NCBI GenBank assembly: GCA_009781765.1 | Contig: WQVC01000022.1 | Location: 1 to 34,995 of the forward strand | Direction of reading: 5' to 3' | DNA from: Defluviitaleaceae bacterium | GTDB lineage: Bacteria; Bacillota; Clostridia; Lachnospirales; WQUN01 | Length of the DNA stretch: 34,995 bases | Shown here: in pieces, positions 4,114 to 34,735 of the stretch | Numbering within the stretch: the stretch's first letter is position 1 | How the letters are laid out: every line of letters begins with the position of its first letter | Translations under genes and position numbers: made by a program | Notes under the pieces: model-generated | What the model was told of the DNA's origin: nothing | Databases searched by the model: none | The model's input: the letters and a program-made list of their open reading frames with translations, nothing else

Positions 4114-4378
4114 CGCGCCAAGCGCGCAGTGGACACCGGGGACAAGACGTCAGCGGCGAAGCATACCCTCGAAGCCGGAGGCGAAGCCCCTTTTCACCGG
4201 GGACAAGACGTAGGCGGCGCGGCATTCCCTCGAAGCCGGAGGCGCGCAGCCCCTTTTCACCGGGGACAGGACGTCAGCGGCGAAGCATACCCTCGAAGCC
4301 GGAGGCGAAGCCCCTTTTCACCGGGGACAAGACGTAGGCGGCGCGGCATTCCCTCGAAGCCGGGGGGCGTTTCGCGCC
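4114..4378 (+). repeat. Family A repeat array, four units, downstream of tyrA
   Basis: The array begins at the tyrA stop with a GCGCGCCAAGCGCGC hairpin, then four units starting at 4134, 4195, 4258 and 4319 (61, 63, 61 and about 60 bp). Each has CACCGGGGACA, a variable middle, and CCCTCGAAGCCGG. Units 1 and 3 differ at one base and units 2 and 4 are almost identical, so the array is a 124-bp dimer duplicated in tandem. Unit lengths are not multiples of three and I see no coding function; an open frame across it has low complexity and no ribosome-binding site. Confidence 0.9.
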
Positions 4379-4389
4379 TTGGCGACAAG

Positions 4390-4550
4390 CGTTAATGCGA
4401 ATCCACAGTTCAAAATAACAGCCCGCCGAAAATGTATTGTGGCGAGCGACCGGTCTTTTTTTCGGATGTTTTTCCCAAAAAAAAGACATCGAGCGAGCCA
4501 TTCACAATGCATCGGCGGGCTGTTATTTCAACAATGGATTCGCATCGTTA
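4390..4550. mobile_element. MITE-like element with terminal inverted repeats and target duplication
   Basis: A 151-bp body (4395-4545) is bounded by perfect 11-bp inverted repeats, ATGCGAATCCA at 4395-4405 and its reverse complement at 4535-4545. It is flanked on both sides by the direct repeat CGTTA (4390-4394 and 4546-4550), as expected for a 5-bp target duplication. The arms continue inward with a perfect 17-bp inverted repeat (4413-4429 with 4512-4528) and an A/T-run pairing (4453-4462 with 4477-4487), so the whole element can fold into one long imperfect hairpin. It encodes no protein. The structure is that of a miniature inverted-repeat transposable element moved by a transposase encoded elsewhere. 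A structured RNA is the alternative. Confidence 0.8.
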
Positions 4551-4623
4551 CATACAGCGAACACCTTCACGGGCTTCTCAAGTGCGTTCGCGATAATTTA
4601 TGAATACAGAGGAAGTGGTTTGC

Positions 4624-5721
4624 GTGAAAACCATAACAGCAGGCTTTCCGTGGTCGTCGGCCGATAACTGCGAAATTTTTATCGAACGCGGTTTGCTCGC
4701 GCATTTTACGCAAATTGCTGAATTTCGCAAAAAATTTTCCGGCGTAAAAAAATTCGCGATTATAACGGACGAAAACGTGTGCCGACTTTATGCGGAGCGC
4801 GTCGCAAACTCGCTTAATGAAGCGGGCTTCGACGTTGTAATACCCTACTTCACCCCCGGCGAGCAGTCCAAAAATATCGACACATTTTTTATGTTGCAAA
4901 ACCAACTTGCCGAAAACGAAATTACCCGCTCCGACGCAATTATCGCTCTCGGCGGCGGCGTGGTCGTCGATTTGGCGGGTTTTGTTGCGGCTACATATCT
5001 GCGGGGCATTCCGTTTGTGCAAATGCCAACAACTCTTCTCGCGATGGTTGACTCGTCGGTGGGCGGAAAAACCGCCATCGACATTCCCGCCGGCAAGAAT
5101 CTCGTCGGCGCGTTTCATCAGCCCGCAATGGTTGTTTGCGACCCCGACACTCTCGGAACTCTCCCCGCCGAAAACTTCGCCGACGGCATGGCGGAAGTCA
5201 TCAAGCACGCCATGATTGAGTGCCGGAGGCCGGAAGCGCGTACCACCTCGGCGTTATTGCATATGCTCAACAGCGAAATTCCGATTTCCGAAAATTCCGG
5301 CATCCTTGCGGACGTCATCGAGGCGAACGTAAAAATCAAGCGCGACATCGTGCAGCGCGACGAGTTCGACACCGGCGAGCGTCAACTTTTAAATTTCGGG
5401 CATACTATCGGTCACGCTGTCGAAAAATTAAGCAGTTTTAAAATTTCGCACGGAAGTGCCGTTGCAATCGGCATGAGCATCATTACAAAATCCGCCGTGC
5501 AAAAAGGTCAATGCGCGCCGGAATGCGCGGAAATTTTGGAAAATCTGCTGCAAAAATATAATCTGCCGACGCACACGGATTTTTCGCCGCAAGAAATTTT
5601 CGAGGCGTCTCTTTCCGACAAAAAACGCACCGGCGGATTTATAATCGAGGTAATTCCGCGTTCGCCGGGCGTGTGCGAACTTGTTAAAATGCCGGTCGGG
5701 GACTTGCTTGATTGGATATAA
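4624..5721 (+). CDS. aroB: 3-dehydroquinate synthase
   Basis: It converts DAHP to 3-dehydroquinate using NAD and a divalent metal. I place the start at GTG 4624 (365 residues) because GAGGAA lies about 10 nt upstream; an in-frame ATG at 4600 has no ribosome-binding site and would add 8 residues. Motifs seen: TPGEQSK (77-83), the NAD-binding GGGVVVDLAG (110-119), PTTLLAMVDSSVGGKTAID (135-153), and likely metal ligands Glu191, His250 (in NFGHTIGH) and His266. Length is normal. It is separated from tyrA by the repeat array and MITE-like element, which may have split a once continuous operon. aroA follows after 19 bp. Confidence 0.93.
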   Translation: MKTITAGFPWSSADNCEIFIERGLLAHFTQIAEFRKKFSGVKKFAIITDENVCRLYAERVANSLNEAGFDVVIPYFTPGEQSKNIDTFFMLQNQLAENEITRSDAIIALGGGVVVDLAGFVAATYLRGIPFVQMPTTLLAMVDSSVGGKTAIDIPAGKNLVGAFHQPAMVVCDPDTLGTLPAENFADGMAEVIKHAMIECRRPEARTTSALLHMLNSEIPISENSGILADVIEANVKIKRDIVQRDEFDTGERQLLNFGHTIGHAVEKLSSFKISHGSAVAIGMSIITKSAVQKGQCAPECAEILENLLQKYNLPTHTDFSPQEIFEASLSDKKRTGGFIIEVIPRSPGVCELVKMPVGDLLDWI

Positions 5722-5740
5722 AATCGGAGGATTGATTCAT

Positions 5741-7243
5741 GTGACGATAACCGTTTTGCCCGCTCAAATCAGCGGCACAATTGCCGCAATTCCTTCAAAA
5801 AGCCATTTGCACCGCTTACTTATTTACGCGGCACTTTCCGACGCGCCGACGACGATTACCTGTCGCGACACAAAAGCCGAGGACATTACCGCAACAATTG
5901 ATTGCCTTTCCGCGCTCGGGGCGGAAATTTGCAGAAACGAAACCGGCTTTGCGGTTCGTCCCGCTGACCGGAGCAAATTATCCGGCGACGCGACAACGCC
6001 GCTTTTTTTTCCGTGCGGCGAAAGCGGCTCGACGCTTCGATTTATGTTGCCCGTTGTAAATGCGTTGGGGCTTCGCGGCGCGTTTGAAATGAAGGGGCGT
6101 TTGCCGGAACGGCCGCTCGCGCCTCTCGACGCGCAGCTCAAAGCGCACGGCGTAAAACTTTGGCGCGAAGGCAATATTCTGCACTGCGAAGGGCAGCTCA
6201 CGCACGGCACATTCACCCTGCCCGGCGATGTTTCTTCGCAATATATTTCGGGGCTGTTGATGGCGTTGCCGCTTCTCGAAAAACCGAGCCGCTTGGAAAT
6301 CACCGGATTCGTCGAATCCGCCGGATACATCGACCTCACATTACAGGTCGCCGAAACCTTTACAGCCGGGGACATATCCGGAATGCCGCACGTTCCCTCG
6401 AAGCCGAACGCCGGGGACACATCCGGAATGCCGCACGTTCCCTCGAAGCCGAACGCCGGGGACACATCCGGAATGCCGCACATACCCTCGAAGCCGGAGT
6501 GTGCTTCCGAAGGGGCATGTAATCTGTCCCCCACCCTCTCGAAGCCGAATGCCGGAAACACATCCGGAATGCCGCACGTTCCCTCGAAGCAGGAATCATC
6601 GCCGGATTCCGCAACCGGATGGGCGTGTGATATCCAACCTGCGGGAGCGTATAAAAGTCCGGGGCGCACGGCGGCCGAAGGCGATTGGTCGAACGCCGCG
6701 TTTTGGCTTTGCGCCGGCGCGATGCCCGGCGGAAGTATTCGCATGACCGGGCTTAACAAAAACAGCTCGCAGGGCGACCGCGAAATTTGCGAAATTTTAA
6801 GCCGCACAGGCGCAAACGTGACGTGGGACGGCGACGACGTTGTTGTATCCGCCGGAAAACTTAACGCCACCGAAATCGACGGTCGTGCCGTGCCGGATTT
6901 GATTCCGGTTTTAGCGGCGGTTGCCTCCGTCGCGCGGGGTACAACCGTTATTCGAAACGCATCTCGCCTTCGAATAAAAGAATCCGACCGTCTCGCAACA
7001 ACCGCGCAAACAATTAACGCACTCGGCGGCAATGTTTCGGAAACATCCGACGGGCTGATCATCACCGGAACGCAACAATTACGCGGCGGCACGGTTGACG
7101 CAGCCGGCGACCATCGCATCGCAATGACGGCGGCAGTCGCGCACACCGCCGCACCGGTAACCGTAACCGGTGCGCAAGCCGTAAACAAGTCCTATCCGGA
7201 TTTTTGGAACGACTTGCGTTCGTTGGGAAGAAAGGCCGATTAA
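5741..7243 (+). CDS. aroA: EPSP synthase with in-frame repeat insertion
   Basis: It transfers the enolpyruvyl group of PEP to shikimate-3-phosphate. The start is GTG 5741 with GGAGG at 5726-5730, giving 500 residues against a usual length near 430. Conserved residues are present: Lys20 (PSKSHLHR), GESGSTLR (93-100), Arg124, the SSQ at 165-167, EGDWSNAAF (313-321), Asp386, Glu414/Arg417 (RIKESDR) and DHR (457-459). Residues about 209-290 do not belong to the family: they are four translated copies of the family A repeat (core SGMPHVPSKP), placed between the D-L-T-L helix and the strand leading to EGDWSNAAF, near the crossover to the second domain. The frame is intact and all catalytic residues remain, so I infer a working enzyme with a Pro/Ser/Gly-rich surface loop. 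Confidence 0.92.
   Translation: MTITVLPAQISGTIAAIPSKSHLHRLLIYAALSDAPTTITCRDTKAEDITATIDCLSALGAEICRNETGFAVRPADRSKLSGDATTPLFFPCGESGSTLRFMLPVVNALGLRGAFEMKGRLPERPLAPLDAQLKAHGVKLWREGNILHCEGQLTHGTFTLPGDVSSQYISGLLMALPLLEKPSRLEITGFVESAGYIDLTLQVAETFTAGDISGMPHVPSKPNAGDTSGMPHVPSKPNAGDTSGMPHIPSKPECASEGACNLSPTLSKPNAGNTSGMPHVPSKQESSPDSATGWACDIQPAGAYKSPGRTAAEGDWSNAAFWLCAGAMPGGSIRMTGLNKNSSQGDREICEILSRTGANVTWDGDDVVVSAGKLNATEIDGRAVPDLIPVLAAVASVARGTTVIRNASRLRIKESDRLATTAQTINALGGNVSETSDGLIITGTQQLRGGTVDAAGDHRIAMTAAVAHTAAPVTVTGAQAVNKSYPDFWNDLRSLGRKAD
6365..6596 (+). repeat. Family A repeats inside the aroA reading frame
   Basis: Four units start at 6365, 6410, 6455 and 6551. Spacing is 45, 45 and 96 bp, all multiples of three. 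Units 1 and 2 differ at one base. The third carries an extra 51 bp that includes a second, partial core (CCCTCTCGAAGCCG). The frame reads G-D-T-S-G-M-P-H-V-P-S-K-P. The DNA matches the intergenic family A copies, with GCCGGGGACA at one end and CCCTCGAAGCCG at the other. Confidence 0.92.
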
Positions 7244-7300
7244 AGTTTTTGTCCCGCTTTTTTCAAAAAGCGGGTGGGGTTCGGGGCGACTCCCCGAAAA
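7243..7300 (+). repeat. Family B two-hairpin repeat between aroA and aroC
   Basis: It begins at the aroA stop. Hairpin 1 is CCCGCTTTTT (7253-7262) with AAAAAGCGGG (7265-7274); hairpin 2 is TTCGGGG (7280-7286) with CCCCGAA (7292-7298). There is no terminal T run, so it is not an obvious terminator. The same two-hairpin design recurs at 11386, 30158 (reversed) and 30251. It ends just before the aroC ribosome-binding site. Confidence 0.75.
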
Positions 7301-7315
7301 TCAGGAGGTGAAACA

Positions 7316-10041: not shown

Positions 10042-11292
10042 ATGCTCCGCAAGTTGAAAATTTTTGCAGTTTTATTTTTTTGCGTAATTTCCGGCTACAC
10101 AATCGGGAGTTTTGCGCATCTTTTTCGTTTTCCCGGCGAACTGCGCCTCACGGAATATTCAACATATAACGTAAATATCGGCGGGCGGTCGCGCACGATT
10201 CAAACGGGAAGCCGTGGCACAGATGAAATGGTAATCGAGGCGTTCGGCGTGCCGCTGCGACGCATCACTCTCGACGTCGTGCCGGAAGTTGAAATCGTCC
10301 CGCTCGGAGTTGCAATCGGCGTGCGCATAAATACCGACGGCGTTATGGTTTTGGGAACGCAGTCGTTTCGCGGCGAATGCGGCGAAATGTTCCGCCCCGC
10401 GCATGACGTTCTGCTCGGCGGCGACTTAATTTTGCGCGCCAACGGCATCGAAATCAACAACAAAGAAGACCTCACACGCTTCATCGAAACAAGCGACGGC
10501 GAAATTATTTTTTCCGTTCGGCGCGGCGAAGAACGGCTCGAAGTTGCCGTAACTCCCGGCATTGCCGAAAAAGACGGCGTTCGGCGAATCGGCGTTTGGG
10601 TGCGCGATTCCACAAAAGGAATCGGTACGCTCACATTTTTTAATCCGGAAACCGGCGCGTTCGGCGCACTCGGTCACGGAATTTTGGACGTTGACACAAA
10701 AACGCTGCTTACCGTTCGAAGCGGGCGAATCATGCCGTCAACGGTAACGTCGGTAACGCGCGGCGTTCGCGGCGTACCCGGCGAGCTCGAAGGCTCGGTG
10801 GACACCTCCGCCACGCTCGGCACAATTTACACAAATTGCACAACCGGCATTTTTGGCGAACTCGAACCCGAAACCCTCGCCCGCTATGCCGACCTCCCCC
10901 GCTTCCCCATCGCCGGCCGCGCGCAAATACAAGAAGGCCCCGCAACAATTTTAACAAACGTGTCCGGAGCCGACGTGAAATCATACGAAATCGAAATCGA
11001 AAACGTTCACATGAACCCTTCCGACGAAACAAAAGGCATCGTAATTCGCATAACCGACCCCGAGCTTTTGCGCCAAACCGGCGGCATAGTTCAGGGCATG
11101 AGCGGCAGCCCGATTTTGCAAAACGGGCGAATTATCGGCGCAATCACCCACGTTTTCGTACAAGACCCCACTCGCGGCTACGGAATTTTTATCGAGAATA
11201 TGGTCGGCGTGGATTATCATAACCAAGTTCTCGGGGGCTCCGTTCTCGGAGGCGTTGCCCCCGAACCCCCTTGCCCGCCAAGCGGGCAGTGA
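10042..11292 (+). CDS. spoIVB: SpoIVB sporulation serine peptidase (S55)
   Basis: In spore formers this forespore peptidase is secreted into the intermembrane space and triggers pro-sigma-K processing by SpoIVF. The 416-residue product has one N-terminal membrane anchor (5-25), a PDZ domain (about 100-165) and an S55 domain. Candidate catalytic residues are His212 (GALGHGILD), Asp339 (RITDP) and Ser354 (GMSGSP); their spacings (142 and 15) equal those of the B. subtilis triad as I recall it (His236, Asp363, Ser378). The GYGIFIENM block near the C-terminus is typical. The last 20 or so residues (L-G-G-S onward, Gly/Pro-rich) are encoded by hairpin repeat DNA, and the stop lies within a family A element. 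Confidence 0.93.
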   Translation: MLRKLKIFAVLFFCVISGYTIGSFAHLFRFPGELRLTEYSTYNVNIGGRSRTIQTGSRGTDEMVIEAFGVPLRRITLDVVPEVEIVPLGVAIGVRINTDGVMVLGTQSFRGECGEMFRPAHDVLLGGDLILRANGIEINNKEDLTRFIETSDGEIIFSVRRGEERLEVAVTPGIAEKDGVRRIGVWVRDSTKGIGTLTFFNPETGAFGALGHGILDVDTKTLLTVRSGRIMPSTVTSVTRGVRGVPGELEGSVDTSATLGTIYTNCTTGIFGELEPETLARYADLPRFPIAGRAQIQEGPATILTNVSGADVKSYEIEIENVHMNPSDETKGIVIRITDPELLRQTGGIVQGMSGSPILQNGRIIGAITHVFVQDPTRGYGIFIENMVGVDYHNQVLGGSVLGGVAPEPPCPPSGQ

Positions 11293-11353
11293 ACGCCGGG
11301 AACACATGTAATTTTCTACACATTCCCTCGAAGCCGGAACAGCTTCCTGTGCA
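11231..11353 (+). repeat. Repeat DNA forming the spoIVB 3' end, with a family A copy
   Basis: A hairpin TCGGGGGC (11231-11238) with GCCCCCGA (11257-11264) is followed by the family A leading hairpin GCCCGCCAAGCGGGC (11273-11287), the spoIVB TGA at 11290-11292, GCCGGGAACACAT, and the core CCCTCGAAGCCGG ending near 11337. The trailing CTTCCTGTGCA is shared with the copy inside comF. Confidence 0.85.
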
Positions 11354-11355
11354 TC

Positions 11356-11382
11356 AAAAAACCGCGCTTCGCGCGGTTTTTT
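11356..11382. terminator. Bidirectional terminator between spoIVB and the chemoreceptor gene
   Basis: A GC stem (ACCGCGC 11361-11367, loop TTC, GCGCGGT 11371-11377) is flanked by an A run on the left and eight T on the right. It can terminate both convergent transcripts. Confidence 0.88.
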
Positions 11383-11385
11383 TTG

Positions 11386-11452
11386 TTAAAGTTTTGATGA
11401 AACTTTTTCAAAAGTTTCCGGGGTGTGGGGCAGAGCCCCGAGGTCTTGGTAA
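11386..11452 (+). repeat. Family B two-hairpin repeat
   Basis: Hairpin 1 is GAAACTTTT (11399-11407) with AAAAGTTTC (11410-11418). Hairpin 2 is GGGG (11427-11430) with CCCC (11436-11439). It is nearly the reverse complement of the copy at 30158-30218. It lies just after the terminator and ends at the stop of the minus-strand chemoreceptor. Confidence 0.8.
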
Positions 11453-17953: not shown

Positions 17954-19078
17954 ATGTCAACAAAATCGTCACAGGTCAGCACCCTCAGACTGCAATTTTA
18001 TCAAATGGGAACGCCTCAAAAAAGGCAATTTATCGAACGGCTTCGTCCGCAGGTTATCAGTACAAGAAACGCCGAATACAAGGCGTTGCTGGATGAATGC
18101 GTTCGAGCATATAACGCCGAAGTCGCGCAGGCGAATGCGTCGCCCCCGAAACCGGCGTCTTCCGCTGCAAGACCTCAGCCGCGTGTTTCGCAACTGCGCG
18201 CGGGGCAAAATCGCATTTTTTGTTCCGGTTGCGGCGTGCAGCTTGAAAGAACCGCGCGTTTTTGTTCGTCGTGCGGATTTCAGGCGAACGCGGCAGTCGC
18301 AAACGAAGACCCTCGATACCCGTCGTATACATACCATGACGTCGGCGATGCTTCATTTATCGGCTTGTTCCGTAAACATTTTTCGGGCGGATTGTATTTA
18401 ACCGCGATAGTGCTTGTTACAGCCGGCATGATACTCGGCAACCTGATGTCGGGGGTTTTCGGCTTGTTAGTGCTTTTGCCCGCTGTTCCGGCGTTAATTT
18501 CCTATTGGATTATGTTTTCCGCCGCAAAATCTCCGGATACTCAAACAAAAGCTCCCGGAGCTTTAACAGTATTTCAAGTGTATTACATCATTGAATTTGT
18601 GATTGTATGCCTGCTCGGGCTTGCGCTTGCTTTTTTGGCTGTGTTGACTTTGGCCGGCGGAGCAGTTTTGGGTGAACTGGGATTAAATGCGGGAGGATTT
18701 GCATTAGGGGGCGTCGCGATTGTTTTGTTGGTTTTCGCCGGCGGCTTGATTGCATTTTTTGCCGTGCAGCTCCGGGCTGCGTTGCAGGTTATTGCATCTT
18801 TGAAAAAAGGACTTGCGACAAATTTGAAAACTCCCTTGCACGGCGTAACCACTTACGCGGTAATGGGCTATATAGCTTACGGCATTATAATTTTGAGCTC
18901 TTTAGCGGGAGTCCTCGCGACAGACGCCGCAATGAGCATGATGCCTGCCCCTTTAGGTTCTCCCGTAAGCAGCGCGGTGTTATTGCTAAGCACTGTTTTA
19001 AGCCTTACTTCGGCGGTTGGAGGAATTTTGTTCCGGACGGTTTTTCTCATCCTTAATAATGCGTTAAAAATTCCGTGA
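17954..19078 (+). CDS. Zinc-ribbon multi-pass membrane protein, paralogue of 1245-2198
   Basis: I choose ATG 17954 because GGAG (17941-17944) lies 9 nt upstream; two earlier in-frame ATGs are too close. The product is 374 residues: a Gln/Arg-rich N-terminal helix region (1-60), a Pro/Ala linker, a zinc ribbon (Cys90, 93, 104, 107; C-x2-C and C-x2-C), then about six membrane helices from residue 133. The membrane part follows the same pattern as the 1245-2198 protein, including a basic loop before the fifth helix (ASLKKGL against NAIKHRV). Function unknown. Its stop overlaps the comF GTG (GTGA), so the two are coupled. Confidence 0.75.
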   Translation: MSTKSSQVSTLRLQFYQMGTPQKRQFIERLRPQVISTRNAEYKALLDECVRAYNAEVAQANASPPKPASSAARPQPRVSQLRAGQNRIFCSGCGVQLERTARFCSSCGFQANAAVANEDPRYPSYTYHDVGDASFIGLFRKHFSGGLYLTAIVLVTAGMILGNLMSGVFGLLVLLPAVPALISYWIMFSAAKSPDTQTKAPGALTVFQVYYIIEFVIVCLLGLALAFLAVLTLAGGAVLGELGLNAGGFALGGVAIVLLVFAGGLIAFFAVQLRAALQVIASLKKGLATNLKTPLHGVTTYAVMGYIAYGIIILSSLAGVLATDAAMSMMPAPLGSPVSSAVLLLSTVLSLTSAVGGILFRTVFLILNNALKIP

Positions 19079-19917
19079 TTTCCACGCTTTCTCATCTGAT
19101 TGACTGGATTTATCCGCCCGCATGTGTTGCATGTCGGGTGCTTTTGCCGCTGAACGAATCGCGGCGATTTTTTTGCGCGCGATGCGAAGGGCTTTTCGAT
19201 GCAATTTCCGAGCCGATTTGCGGGCGTTGCGGTGCACCGAGCACCGGAGACATACGCAGCTTACCGCACATTCTCTCGAAGCCGGATGCGGCTTCCTGTG
19301 CAACACAATATAATTCTTCGTACAACCCGGGCGTCGAGCCGGAAAACAACTTTGCAACCGATACCCTCCCCTCCCCCGCCGCCTGTCCGTCGTGCGCCGG
19401 AAAAACTTTCTTGTTTGAAAAAAATTTTGCTTCATTTATATACGACGATTTACTTCGCGAGCTTTTGCACGAAATAAAATTTCGCGATAACAAGCGGGTT
19501 GCGGCGGCATTGGGGCATATTTGGGCGGCGAACTGCTTAAATTTTCCCGAAAATATTTCCGAGTACACGCTTGTTCCTATGCCCATGCATCCGAAAAAAC
19601 AGCGCGAACGCGGGTTTAATCAGGCGGATTTATTGGCCGCGCCTCTTGCCGCCGCGTTAAAAATTCCCGTGTCGAAAGTTTTGCGCCGAACAGTTGATAC
19701 GCCTCCGCAATCGGAAATTCATCCGTCGCAACGAGCGGAAAATGTGCGCGGTGTTTTTGAGGTTTGCAAAAAATTTCAAACAAACGAAAAAAAATTTATT
19801 TTGGCGGATGACATTTTTACCACCGGCGCAAGCCTGAACGAATGCGTGCGAGTTCTGATAAAATCAGGCGCGAAGCAAGTTTTATGTATGACTTTGGCAA
19901 TTTCGGTAAAAAACTAA
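19075..19917 (+). CDS. comFC: ComF-family phosphoribosyltransferase-like protein with repeat insertion
   Basis: ComFC is linked to natural transformation and has a zinc finger plus a phosphoribosyltransferase fold. Start GTG 19075 overlaps the upstream stop; no good ribosome-binding site, so coupling is assumed. Of 280 residues, eight Cys form four pairs (17/20, 34/37, 49/52, 104/107), followed by FIYDDLLRELLHEIKF, PMPMHPKKQRERGFNQ and the PRPP-binding loop ILADDIFTTGAS (about 232-243). Residues about 57-101 between CGRCGAP and CPSC are unusually long for the family and begin with a translated family A repeat (GDIRSLPHILSKP). The gene precedes flgM, as in B. subtilis. Confidence 0.88.
   Translation: MISTLSHLIDWIYPPACVACRVLLPLNESRRFFCARCEGLFDAISEPICGRCGAPSTGDIRSLPHILSKPDAASCATQYNSSYNPGVEPENNFATDTLPSPAACPSCAGKTFLFEKNFASFIYDDLLRELLHEIKFRDNKRVAAALGHIWAANCLNFPENISEYTLVPMPMHPKKQRERGFNQADLLAAPLAAALKIPVSKVLRRTVDTPPQSEIHPSQRAENVRGVFEVCKKFQTNEKKFILADDIFTTGASLNECVRVLIKSGAKQVLCMTLAISVKN
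19241..19302 (+). repeat. Family A copy inside the comF reading frame
   Basis: GCACCGGAGACATACG, then CCGCACATTCTCTCGAAGCCGG, split here as CCGCACATT and CTCTCGAAGCCGG, and then CTTCCTGTGCA, a tail shared with the copy after spoIVB. It is read in the same frame as in aroA (P-H-I-L-S-K-P against P-H-V-P-S-K-P). Confidence 0.85.
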
Positions 19918-25887: not shown

Positions 25888-27408
25888 ATGCGCGTTACAA
25901 ATCATATGATTTTCGGAAATTCCATGAACAATATTTGGCGCAATGCGCGTCATTTGAACAATCTTGTTACGCAAATCGAAACGGGCAAAAAAATTCAACG
26001 CCCCTCCGACGACCCGCTTATTGCCGCACGCGCGTTGCGTTACCGCACAATTTTGTCGGAAACGGAGCAGTTTTTGCGCAATTCACAGCAGGGCATGGCG
26101 TGGATGGAAGTATCGGAAGCCGCGTTCAACAGCATCCTGACGGGCAGCGCAACAACACCGTCGCTTATGCAGCGCATTTATACGCGCTTGGTTGAAGGTG
26201 CGCAAACCGGCACACAAACCCTTGACGAACATCGCGCAATTGTTGCGGAGCTTCGCCAATATTTTGACCAGATGTTCGGCGTTGACATGAATCAAACTTA
26301 TTTGGGCAGATACGTTTTTTCCGGCTTCCACACCGACCAGTCGCCGGTTTTAAAAGAAGATTGGCCCGGCCGCAGTTTTATCATCACGCAGGATTTCGAT
26401 GCCGGTGTAATTGAACGCGCAAAAGCGTTTCATCGCGAAACGCCCACGAGTATGCCCGAGGATATTTGGGCGAATATCATTAAATTACCCTTCACAAATG
26501 CAAATTTTGATTTCGACACCGCAGGAATTACCGGCAACCCGCCGCAAATCGGCATTGTTTTGGCGGACGGCACGGAGCTTTTCGTTTACACCACGGATTC
26601 CACCGCAGAAAATGCGTATCGTCCGGATGACGCCGGCGGAACGCCGCCGCTTCCGATGATTCATCACTTGCGCGACACGGGCGAGCTGATTGTAAGCGAC
26701 GCGGTTCGCGATTTGATTATCGGCGCGGGCGGGCTTCGCGTGGTTTATGAAAAAAGCGATATTCGTGCGGGCGAATTGAACCCGATTGTTTACTTTGAGT
26801 CGGCGGAAATTATTTCAACAACCGACGACACTGGTGCTGTTTCGCAAAATGCCGTGCATTTCAGCACACGCGGGCAAAATATCCAACTGGAAATTTCGCC
26901 GATGGCGTACATCACAATAAATACCCACGCTCGTGACGCCCTTACGGCGGATTTGTTCGCGGATTTGCGACGTCTTTTCGACTTTGCGGATTCACTCATT
27001 GCCTCCGACCCGGCCGTGATTCGCGAATATTTCGCTGCGCCGCCGCACAATAAGACCGGCGATGATTTAGACAACGCGGTTGCGCGATTCCTGTCGGACG
27101 AAAACGCTGCTTTTTCCGGCGCAATGCACATTCGCTTCGACAATATGCTTGAGTCGATTCAGGCGCATAAGGCAGCGGCGCAACGCCAACATTCGCAGCT
27201 CGGCGCGAGAATGTCGCGGCTTGAAATGATTCAAATTCGCTTGGATGAAGACGAAGTTGCCTACACCGACCTCATGTCCGATAACGAAGATGTTGACATG
27301 GCCGCCACAATTATGCGCAAATCCGGCGCGGAAGCGGCGTTCAGCCACGCGCTCAGGTCGATTGCAATGACAACGCAACTTTCTCTTGCGGATTTCATAA
27401 ACCGTTAG
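25888..27408 (+). CDS. flgL: Flagellar hook-associated protein 3 (FlgL), first copy
   Basis: FlgL is the second junction protein, directly below the filament. The 506-residue product has the N-terminal D0/D1 motif QIETGKKIQRPSDDPLIAAR (residues about 29-48) and the C-terminal LGARMSRLEMIQIRLDEDEV helix. Typical FlgL is near 300 residues, so about 200 residues of variable domain are added in the middle (about 150-400). An AGGAGGT site precedes the ATG, 11 bp after flgK. A family A array follows its stop. Confidence 0.9.
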   Translation: MRVTNHMIFGNSMNNIWRNARHLNNLVTQIETGKKIQRPSDDPLIAARALRYRTILSETEQFLRNSQQGMAWMEVSEAAFNSILTGSATTPSLMQRIYTRLVEGAQTGTQTLDEHRAIVAELRQYFDQMFGVDMNQTYLGRYVFSGFHTDQSPVLKEDWPGRSFIITQDFDAGVIERAKAFHRETPTSMPEDIWANIIKLPFTNANFDFDTAGITGNPPQIGIVLADGTELFVYTTDSTAENAYRPDDAGGTPPLPMIHHLRDTGELIVSDAVRDLIIGAGGLRVVYEKSDIRAGELNPIVYFESAEIISTTDDTGAVSQNAVHFSTRGQNIQLEISPMAYITINTHARDALTADLFADLRRLFDFADSLIASDPAVIREYFAAPPHNKTGDDLDNAVARFLSDENAAFSGAMHIRFDNMLESIQAHKAAAQRQHSQLGARMSRLEMIQIRLDEDEVAYTDLMSDNEDVDMAATIMRKSGAEAAFSHALRSIAMTTQLSLADFINR

Positions 27409-27600
27409 TCCGCCCGGCGGACTTCGGACGCCGGGGGCATATGTCGCGGACGACACGTTCCCTCGAAGCCGGTGCGCCAAGCGCACTTCAGACGCCGAGA
27501 ACATATATCGAAGGCGGCGCGTTCCCTCGAAGCCGGTGCGCCAAGCGCACTTCGGACGCCGGGAACATATATCAGAGGCGGCGCGTTCTCTCGAAGCCGG
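27409..27600 (+). repeat. Family A array of three 64-bp units between the two flgL genes
   Basis: Three units of exactly 64 bp start at 27409, 27473 and 27537. Unit 1 opens with a GTCCGCCCGGCGGAC hairpin at the flgL1 stop; units 2 and 3 open with TGCGCCAAGCGCA. Each then has GCCGGGAACATAT (or close variant) and the core CCCTCGAAGCCGG. The remaining 52 bp to flgL2 hold only its ribosome-binding site. Confidence 0.92.
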
Positions 27601-27652
27601 TTCGGCTTGCGGTTGCACAAAATAAAAAAATTTCGTTCGGCGGAGGTCAATT

Positions 27653-30157: not shown

Positions 30158-30218
30158 AAGACCTCGGGGCTCCGCCCCGAGCCCCGGAAACTTTTGAAAA
30201 AGTTTCATCAAAACTTTA
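30158..30218 (-). repeat. Family B two-hairpin repeat, reversed
   Basis: Near-identical to the reverse complement of the copy at 11386-11452, including GATGAAACTTTTTCAAAAG and the GGGGC...GCCCC hairpin. It lies between the csrA stop and the terminator. Confidence 0.8.
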
Positions 30219-30220
30219 TT

Positions 30221-30249
30221 AAAAATCGCGCTTTCGCGCGATTTTTTTT
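30221..30249 (+). terminator. Intrinsic terminator of the flagellar block
   Basis: An A run and ATCGCGC (30225-30231) pair with GCGCGAT (30236-30242) and a run of T residues. It is flanked by family B copies in opposite orientation. Confidence 0.88.
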
Positions 30250-30250
30250 G

Positions 30251-30306
30251 TTTTTGTCGAACTTTTTTTAAAAAGTTCGTGGGGTTCGGGGCGAAGCCCC
30301 GAAAAA
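30251..30306 (+). repeat. Family B two-hairpin repeat
   Basis: Hairpin 1 CGAACTTTTT with AAAAAGTTCG; hairpin 2 TTCGGGGC with GCCCCGAA. Closest in sequence to the copy after aroA (both share GTGGGGTTCGGGGCGA). Confidence 0.8.
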
Positions 30307-30319
30307 CATTATCCTGAGG

Positions 30320-30348: not shown

Positions 30349-30369
30349 CAACACACAGTAAAATAATTT

Positions 30370-30540
30370 CGCGAGGGGTGCTGCGCAACCGATTTTATAT
30401 CGGCGCGGCTGAGAAATACCCTTTGAACCTGCTCCGGGTAATTCCGGCGAAGGGATGCGTGCGCGGCTTTGTCGCCAAACATCGGGATGAATTGTGTAAT
30501 CCCTTCGAAGTTTTTCGTCCTCGCGGATAATCCGGGAGGT
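30370..30540 (+). promoter_or_regulatory. TPP riboswitch with expression platform
   Basis: Aptamer about 30370-30458 carries the THI-box landmarks in order: GGGGTGC (30375-30381), a short variable stem (CCGAT/ATCGG), GGCTGAGAAATACCC (from 30407), TTTGAACCTG, then GGGTAATTCC and GCGAAGGGA. Downstream, ATCCCTTCG (30499-30507) is a perfect 9-bp complement of CGAAGGGAT (30448-30456), the 3' side of the aptamer, so binding of TPP and this pairing exclude each other. The RBS GGGAGG (30534-30539) lies just beyond. High TPP should lower ThiT production. Confidence 0.93.
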
Positions 30541-33564: not shown

Positions 33565-34610
33565 CTTATCACGAAAATTTAAATGCGCAAAATACGCTGA
33601 GATTGCGGGAGCTTTTAAAAACGCTTCCGCAATTTGCGGCGGGATATTTTCGCAGTGTCAGCGAACAAACGGCGTCACTTACGCGCCTTGCATACGCTTA
33701 CGACCTGCGACTTTTTTTTACGTTTTTGTCGGAGGAAGTGCTTTACGTTCCGCCCGCCGAAATATCTGTTGAGCAGATGCAGAAAATCGACGACACGCAT
33801 ATCGAGGAATTTATGGAATATTTGACATACTACGTGCCGATTTCGGATTCCGAATCGGACGAAAAGCCGGTGCAAAACGCTGTTGCGGGCAAATCGCGCA
33901 AATTAGCGGCGGTGCGACGGCTTTTCAAGTATTTGTACAAGCGCAAGTACATATCGGCGAATCCGGCGGAGCTTGTGGATTTTCCGCGTCTGAAAGAGCA
34001 GCCGATTACCACGCTTGAAGCCGATGAAGTCGCGCGGCTTCTCGACGAGGTTGACAGCGGCGAAAATTTAACAAAGCATCAAAAGGCGTTTCATGCGCGA
34101 ACCCGCCTGCGCGATGCGGCAATCATCACGTTATTGCTCGGAACGGGAATGCGGGTTTCGGAATGCGTGGGCATCGACCTGAGCGACATCGACTTCGAGG
34201 TGAACGGCTTGCGGGTTGTGCGCAAGGGCGGCGACGCGATGATTTTATATTTCGGCGACGAAGTACGCGATGCACTTTGCGCGTGGCTCGACCGCCGCGA
34301 GGAAATCGAGCCGCTTCCCGGGCATGAAAACGCGCTGTTTATTTCGCTGCATTCCAAAAGAATAACCACTCGCGCCGTGCAAAAGTTGGTAAAAAAATAC
34401 GCCGCGTTGATAACAAAGTTAAAAAATATTTCGCCGCACAAATTACGCAGCACCTTCGGAACGCGCCTCTACAGCGAAACCGGCGACATTTATCTTGTGG
34501 CAAACGTTCTCGGACACAGTGACATAAACACAACGCGCAAGCATTATGCAAAAATGGATGACGCCCACCGACGCAAAGCGGCGAATATTGTAAAATTGCG
34601 CGATTCTTGA
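33561..34610 (+). CDS. Tyrosine recombinase (XerC/XerD-like)
   Basis: Start GTG 33561 overlaps the upstream stop (GTGA) and has GGAAGAAG a few nt upstream; 349 residues. The N-terminal SAM-like core-binding domain spans about 20-130. The catalytic set is complete: Arg188 (GTGMRVSE), Lys212 (VVRKGG), His293 and Arg296 (HKLRSTFGTRLY), His319 (VLGHSDINTTRKHY) and the nucleophile Tyr329. No phage genes, att repeats or dif site were seen nearby. It may be a chromosome-dimer recombinase or another host recombinase; XerC and XerD cannot be told apart from the sequence alone. Placed in a two-gene unit with the TraB-like protein. Confidence 0.92.
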   Translation: MTYHENLNAQNTLRLRELLKTLPQFAAGYFRSVSEQTASLTRLAYAYDLRLFFTFLSEEVLYVPPAEISVEQMQKIDDTHIEEFMEYLTYYVPISDSESDEKPVQNAVAGKSRKLAAVRRLFKYLYKRKYISANPAELVDFPRLKEQPITTLEADEVARLLDEVDSGENLTKHQKAFHARTRLRDAAIITLLLGTGMRVSECVGIDLSDIDFEVNGLRVVRKGGDAMILYFGDEVRDALCAWLDRREEIEPLPGHENALFISLHSKRITTRAVQKLVKKYAALITKLKNISPHKLRSTFGTRLYSETGDIYLVANVLGHSDINTTRKHYAKMDDAHRRKAANIVKLRDS

Positions 34611-34613
34611 AAC

Positions 34614-34735
34614 TCCGGGGGACACATGCAATTTGCCGCACGTTCCCTCGAAGCCGGAGCAGCAGAGCAATTTGCGTTGTCCGAAAACGAGGAGGGGAAT
34701 GGGGGCATCAGCCCGGTTCCCTCCGAAGTTTGAGG
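34614..34735 (+). repeat. Family A copy and a degenerate second copy after the recombinase gene
   Basis: CTCCGGGGGACACATGC through TTCCCTCGAAGCCGG (34614-34657) is a clear copy beginning 3 nt after the stop. A degenerate copy follows near 34690-34735 (GGGGGCATCAG, then GTTCCCTCCGAAG). Confidence 0.75.

Follow-up and report, generated by a model that had tools for sequence, protein, structure and literature searches.

The aroA locus and its internal repeat array

The window, by which we mean the whole 34,995-nt stretch of DNA analyzed here, belongs to a 2.94-Mb draft metagenome-assembled genome (G000; 154 contigs, 94% complete) and contains an aromatic operon with the gene order DAHP synthase, prephenate dehydrogenase, aroB, aroA, and aroC. 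Inspection of the sequence revealed cggagga at 5725-5731, upstream of the putative GTG start of aroA. Within this gene, which encodes EPSP synthase, a block of dispersed repeats occupies positions 6365-6595 and comprises four good units and one degenerate unit at spacings of 45, 45, 51, and 45 (Table 1). A preliminary description of this DNA had reported four copies spaced by 45, 45, and 96 bp that added about 80 residues. The four good units and the multiples of three stood, all five unit lengths (45, 45, 45, 51, and 45 nt) being divisible by three; the degenerate unit had been overlooked, and its profile score lies above those of reversed-sequence controls, all of which were below 16. The net gain to AroA from the repeats is ~76 to 78 residues.

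Table 1. The repeat-bearing aroA gene, its repeat units, and other copies of the element in the window
Feature	Position	Strand	Basis or remark
Intergenic array, four units, spacing 61/63/61	4131..4367	+	Repeat profile
aroA (EPSP synthase), repeat host	5741..7243	+	Likely start GTG 5741; frame open 5654-7243
In-frame unit 1 in aroA, 45 nt, AGDISGMPHVPSKPN	6365..6409	+	Repeat profile
In-frame unit 2 in aroA, 45 nt, AGDTSGMPHVPSKPN	6410..6454	+	Repeat profile
In-frame unit 3 in aroA, 45 nt, AGDTSGMPHIPSKPE	6455..6499	+	Repeat profile
Degenerate unit 4 in aroA, 51 nt	6500..6550	+	Profile score 20.5
In-frame unit 5 in aroA, 45 nt, AGNTSGMPHVPSKQE	6551..6595	+	Repeat profile
Near full-length copy with hairpin, extreme end of a gene into the intergenic region	11273..11355	+	
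Single in-frame copy in comF-like gene (19075-19917)	19238..19289	+	
Intergenic array, three units, spacing 64/64	27408..27611	+	Repeat profile
Lone copy, mostly intergenic stretch	34610..34661	+	

The AroA protein was aligned with seven orthologues from the genus (the sister species, G002, included), one from the family, and two from the order. At the site of the array, seven of these orthologues (G001, G003 to G007, and G021, from genus and family) have a short, repeat-free loop, and the interval from F209 to K307 comprises 97 residues in the window protein versus 19 in G006 and 21 in G007. As judged from this alignment, the aroA repeat is shown to be an insertion relative to its orthologues. 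The preliminary description had considered that relatives might instead carry an equally long but unrelated sequence here, and they do not. It had also called for repeat-free orthologues with a clean junction; such orthologues exist, but the junction falls somewhat short of clean, since a small hairpin after F209 seems to have had its first strand replaced.

The sister species carries one repeat unit at the same aroA position, in a different reading frame. There, CCGGGGACATAT begins 5 nt past the F codon, compared with 4 nt past it in the window genome, and the segment bounded by CCGGGG and AAGCCG is equally long in the two genes, so that the sister copy is read in another frame (HSLEAE versus HVPSKP). 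Both copies start at one internal point of the full element. Because they share this starting point, a single old truncated insertion followed later by a compensated frameshift appears more likely than two insertions. Under either history, it is not the peptide that has been conserved.

The interrupted AroA appears to be an intact enzyme

The aroA product matched the Pfam EPSP_synthase family (3.3e-73), the match being split over two stretches, and cleared the TIGR01356 aroA model with 296 bits versus a cut-off of 287. Residues that are invariant in 38 relatives were retained, among them K22, S23, R27, R126, S167-S168-Q169, Y198, K415, R419, R461, and K485, whose role in EPSP synthase is established. 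Comparison of aroA between the window genome and the sister species gave a dN of 0.19 and a dS of 0.82 (dN/dS, ~0.23), and with the insert excluded, pN was 0.16 and pS was 0.50; these values indicate that purifying selection acts on the gene between the two species. A search for a second aroA in the 94%-complete window genome found none, the sole extra match being a weak MurA-type protein.

In an AlphaFold2 model of the window AroA, pLDDT was at least 90 at 368 residues, i.e., most of the enzyme, and fell below 50 at residues 213 to 218 and 221 to 292 in the insert region. The closest PDB structures to the model were EPSP synthases. The insert is thus predicted to be a disordered loop in an otherwise normal-looking enzyme, and AroA looks intact despite it. 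The retained invariant residues agree with the claim in the preliminary description that every catalytic motif remains, and the structural modeling that it proposed yielded a good model except for the disordered insert. The decayed aroA with a second intact copy elsewhere that it had also considered was not found: aroA is single in the 94%-complete genome and is under purifying selection.

Structure of the element and its other copies in the window

The repeat has a core of about 45 nt and a full length of about 85 to 98 nt; the consensus in the sister species is TAAAAAAGCGCGCCAAGCGCGCAGTGGGCACCGGGGACATGTGTCGGCGGCGACGCATTCCCTCGAAGCCGGGAGCAGTTTCCCGGCCCATAAAAAAA. Hairpin 1 of the full element (GCGCGC-CAA-GCGCGC) is paired in 99% of cells and shows compensatory changes. 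The remaining drawn helices pair in 52 to 61% of cells, and the rest of the element is conserved mainly as sequence; two core helices that had been drawn were rejected because of poor register. The 45-nt units in aroA have no GCGCGC-CAA-GCGCGC hairpin. The earlier term "palindromic" thus suits the repeat only in part, the full element having one well-supported hairpin that the aroA units do not share. An Rfam search with the element found no matching family. Since openness in all six frames did not exceed that of composition-matched shuffled controls (P = 0.2), the element seems not to be adapted to coding, and adaptation to be open in every frame was rejected.

Elsewhere in the window, the element occurs both between and within genes (Table 1). 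The spacings of both intergenic arrays bear out the values of 61/63 and 64 reported previously. The copy in the comF-like gene separates the zinc ribbon from the phosphoribosyltransferase domain.

Distribution of the element across genomes

The genome-wide repeat search suggested in the preliminary description was carried out with the core TCCCTCGAAGCCGG. At up to two mismatches, 359 sites were found in the window genome versus 20 for the reversed pattern, and at one mismatch, 251 sites were found versus 1 in the reversed control; the abundance of the element is far beyond chance. The 14-nt core, with at most one mismatch, gave 251 matches in the window genome, 567 in the sister species, 0 to 3 in eight other congeners, and background levels in 51 further genomes, and an exact 15-nt core gave one match, in 1 of 397 other genomes of the phylum. 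These counts indicate that the element expanded only in the window genome and its sister species. One full-length copy was also seen on an IMG/VR viral-type contig (L270:911-927).

Copies inside genes

Gene censuses were taken on unbiased samples of the window genome (435 kb) and the sister species (400 kb), together with whole-genome pattern counts. Of 53 copies in the first sample, 25 were genic, 20 in sense and 5 in antisense orientation, and together they affected 18 of the 354 predicted genes; of 134 copies in the second, 31 were genic (22 in sense and 9 in antisense orientation), spread over 25 of the 344 genes. Because 87 to 89% of the sampled DNA is coding, copies inside genes are under-represented, as would be expected if most genic insertions were removed. 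Sense copies were read in the SLEA frame in 22 cases, in the PSKP frame in 19, and in the third frame in 1.

The interrupted hosts are conserved enzymes by Pfam and NCBIfam assignment and include metH, asparagine synthase, a P-type ATPase, and aminopeptidase P, as well as NspC, an ABC ATPase, a radical SAM protein, and a ComF-like protein. In a chimeric search with eleven interrupted proteins, the corresponding sites of the sister species or of other congeners were short or free of the repeat. Inserts of 179 aa (asnB), 100 aa (radical SAM), 66 aa (M24), 61 aa (GT), 54 aa (ABC), and 82 aa (metH, which retains a partial element) are absent or almost absent from the sister species. At the DNA level, its GT, radical SAM, asnB, and ABC sites are repeat-free or nearly so, and metH and nspC hold a partial or single element. 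From these comparisons, we infer that some genic insertions are older and some younger than the split of the two species, or that some have been lost.

Unit spacings were divisible by three in 22 of 23 cases in verified genes versus 1 of 7 in intergenic DNA. The earlier contrast between genic and intergenic spacing is in agreement with these counts, which are to be read as support only, since tandem units are not independent and an open frame itself demands multiples of three. As a separate observation, asnB, nspC, and trmK of the window genome (L133, L125, and L154) also carry in-frame low-complexity inserts that are unrelated to the element, e.g., HDGALHGSAFHNDDSHSGS and (EAA)n.

Candidate routes of mobility

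Neither a Y1 transposase (PF01797, TnpA-REP) nor a reverse transcriptase (PF00078) was found in the window genome or the sister species (drafts 92 to 94% complete), and a REP/RAYT or retro-element origin was rejected on this basis. The element consensus contains no terminal inverted repeats. Direct repeats of at least 8 nt flank 12 of 70 arrays, versus 4.2 expected; most of them consist of shared A-tracts or are left over from arrays. A MITE with a constant target-site duplication was rejected given the lack of inverted termini and the weak, inconsistent direct repeats. Half-elements bracketing a transposase gene were likewise rejected, the scan of the sister species having given mainly degenerate single copies. 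At one gene start in that species (L172 near 13396), a 19-nt direct repeat, CCATGACCATTATTGACGC, lies on both sides of a copy; it might be a target-site duplication and is suggestive but single.

Different coding repeats in other congeners

AroA proteins of two other congeners contain extra segments at other positions, near window-protein residue 80 in G001 and near residue 146 in G005. Both segments are dispersed repeats read in frame, matching 48 sites in G001 and 10 sites in G005, and both repeats are almost absent from the congeners searched alongside. The G001 repeat is built from a GGGGC hairpin, TTTTCTCCGACTG, and TGGTGGGAATGTCGCCTCGAAGCCTTGACAG, and many copies lie within long open frames; 5 of 13 copies in an unbiased 400-kb sample were inside genes, and G001 nspC holds one copy (G001:C28:10607-10669). 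No abundant repeat was found in samples of G006 and G007, so not every member of the genus shows the habit.

Common descent of the G001 family and the family described here was dropped because the joint alignment was too poor; the two have in common only the plan and a CTCGAAGCC tail. Tentatively, several congeners may each have been invaded by a coding-repeat family of their own with a common modular plan (an exchangeable GC-rich hairpin, a core ending in CTCGAAGCC, and an A-rich end), moved by an enzyme of a class so far unlinked to small repeats and landing recurrently in aroA and nspC loops; we regard this picture as possible but doubtful. In G001 (L229-L238), 13-mers around AATCCGCGAAAATCCG and TCGGGACGGATAAATCCG are abundant, a sign of additional repeat families.

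Relation to known repeat systems

Rickettsia palindromic elements (RPE) are small repeats fused in frame within conserved genes, and a guanylate kinase with such an insert is active (PMC2229807). Like RPE and their Wolbachia equivalents, the present element is a small dispersed repeat with many copies, both intergenic and in frame inside conserved protein genes, and those genes have repeat-free orthologues. Unlike RPE, it resides in a Bacillota-type host rather than in Rickettsiales, has one well-supported hairpin that is often missing from copies in genes, forms long in-frame tandem arrays, and interrupts about 5 to 7% of genes. An NCBIfam scan of five interrupted proteins gave no match to an RPE model.

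Intragenic REPs of the GTAG and CGTC superfamilies form clusters that encode 43 to 82 residues in Thauera and R. conorii, and the CGTC REPs have no dedicated transposase (PMC3733652). The present element resembles them in forming clusters of short repeats within genes, but its consensus lacks a GTAG or CGTC tag and both genomes lack a Y1/RAYT transposase. Because the defining REP features that were tested are missing and no sequence relation to RPE was found in the scan of interrupted proteins, we call the element RPE-like rather than RPE. The parallel with Rickettsia drawn in the preliminary description holds as to kind, but the parallel is wider than it stated, intragenic REPs having been published (PMC3733652). 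ERIC and Correia/NEMIS, which are bacterial MITEs, are ~100-nt nonautonomous repeats with some in-frame gene fusions (PMC2229807); in contrast to these, the element lacks terminal inverted repeats as well as a consistent target-site duplication. PARCEL is palindromic coding DNA in tandem arrays that encode a conserved 25-residue amphipathic motif, mostly in ORFs without an assigned function (PMC2996958). The tandem arrangement of coding DNA, palindromic only in part here, is shared with the present element, which differs in having no conserved peptide and in having housekeeping enzymes as hosts. A literature search, incomplete in coverage, found nothing on coding palindromes in the present group or in EPSP synthase. 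The element is a new family of an already known kind, apparently in a phylum that is new for coding palindromes.

Interpretation

We favor, with a probability of roughly 0.83, an RPE-like nonautonomous repeat whose copies insert, can grow in tandem, and last in genes only where the frame is open and the loop tolerant. Such a repeat would have multiplied in the window species and its sister, with new copies, presumably moved in trans, landing in intergenic DNA and in genes. Copies that broke genes would have been lost through selection; those with an open frame in a tolerant loop would persist and be translated, and some would be multiplied in tandem without loss of frame, slippage or unequal recombination being the probable cause. 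The aroA array would go back to a short copy in a loop just before the Y-x-SPG segment, beside the inter-domain hinge; in the window genome, this copy would have reached five units and thereby added ~77 residues to the loop, which is predicted to be disordered. The inserted peptide probably has no conserved role of its own.

Alternatively, the repeat could be a regulatory RNA or a terminator-linked REP-like element that is selected in 3' untranslated regions, the genic copies being accidental by-products. In the sister species, a hairpin resembling an intrinsic terminator comes after 44 of 91 intergenic copies, and the hairpin of the element is conserved; in the window genome, however, such a terminator-like hairpin follows only 1 of 24 intergenic copies, the aroA units lack the hairpin, and most congeners live without the element. 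We consider this alternative unlikely as an account of the repeat, and it is in any case compatible with the preferred explanation of the genic copies. Less probable still is selection for the inserted peptide itself, as a linker or interaction tag, with the repeat spreading because the peptide is useful. Many hosts carry the repeat and tandem growth is common, in favor of this alternative, but host genes read the repeat DNA in antisense as well as in two or more sense frames, so that no peptide is common to the hosts, and the aroA copies of the two sister species are themselves in different frames; moreover, the host enzymes are unrelated, genic copies are depleted relative to the coding fraction, and the insert is predicted to be disordered. 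Decay of aroA and the other host genes, or an artifact of assembly, as a draft genome with repeats that are difficult to assemble might suggest, is scarcely credible given a single aroA that lies in an operon, passes the equivalog cut-off, keeps its invariant key residues, and has a dN/dS of ~0.23, given like inserts in two separate draft genomes and other repeats in two more species, and given that frames stay open across the arrays of many genes.

The range of coding dispersed repeats, namely, obligate intracellular Rickettsiales together with some REP-rich proteobacteria and others, is widened by this RPE-like repeat to a Bacillota-type genus with genomes of normal size, and at a high load, approximately 1 gene in 20. 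Sister species that hold filled and repeat-free versions of the same genes offer many natural experiments on the tolerance of enzymes for new disordered loops. With three dispersed repeats at three aroA sites in four congeners, whether selfish DNA creates protein sequence becomes directly testable.

Additional repeats and features

In the sister species (L156-L175), a second abundant terminator-like palindrome, GAGTCGGCGAGTG..CACTCGCCGACTC, often directly follows the element. The window itself contains a second dispersed family of ~59 to 68 nt at 7245-7303 (between aroA and aroC), 11380-11447, 30158-30225, and 30250-30308. A MITE-like palindrome of ~200 nt with the ends gcgaatcca and tggattcgc lies at 4380-4600, just upstream of aroB, and a TPP riboswitch at 30364-30472 precedes a YuaJ-type thiamine transporter.
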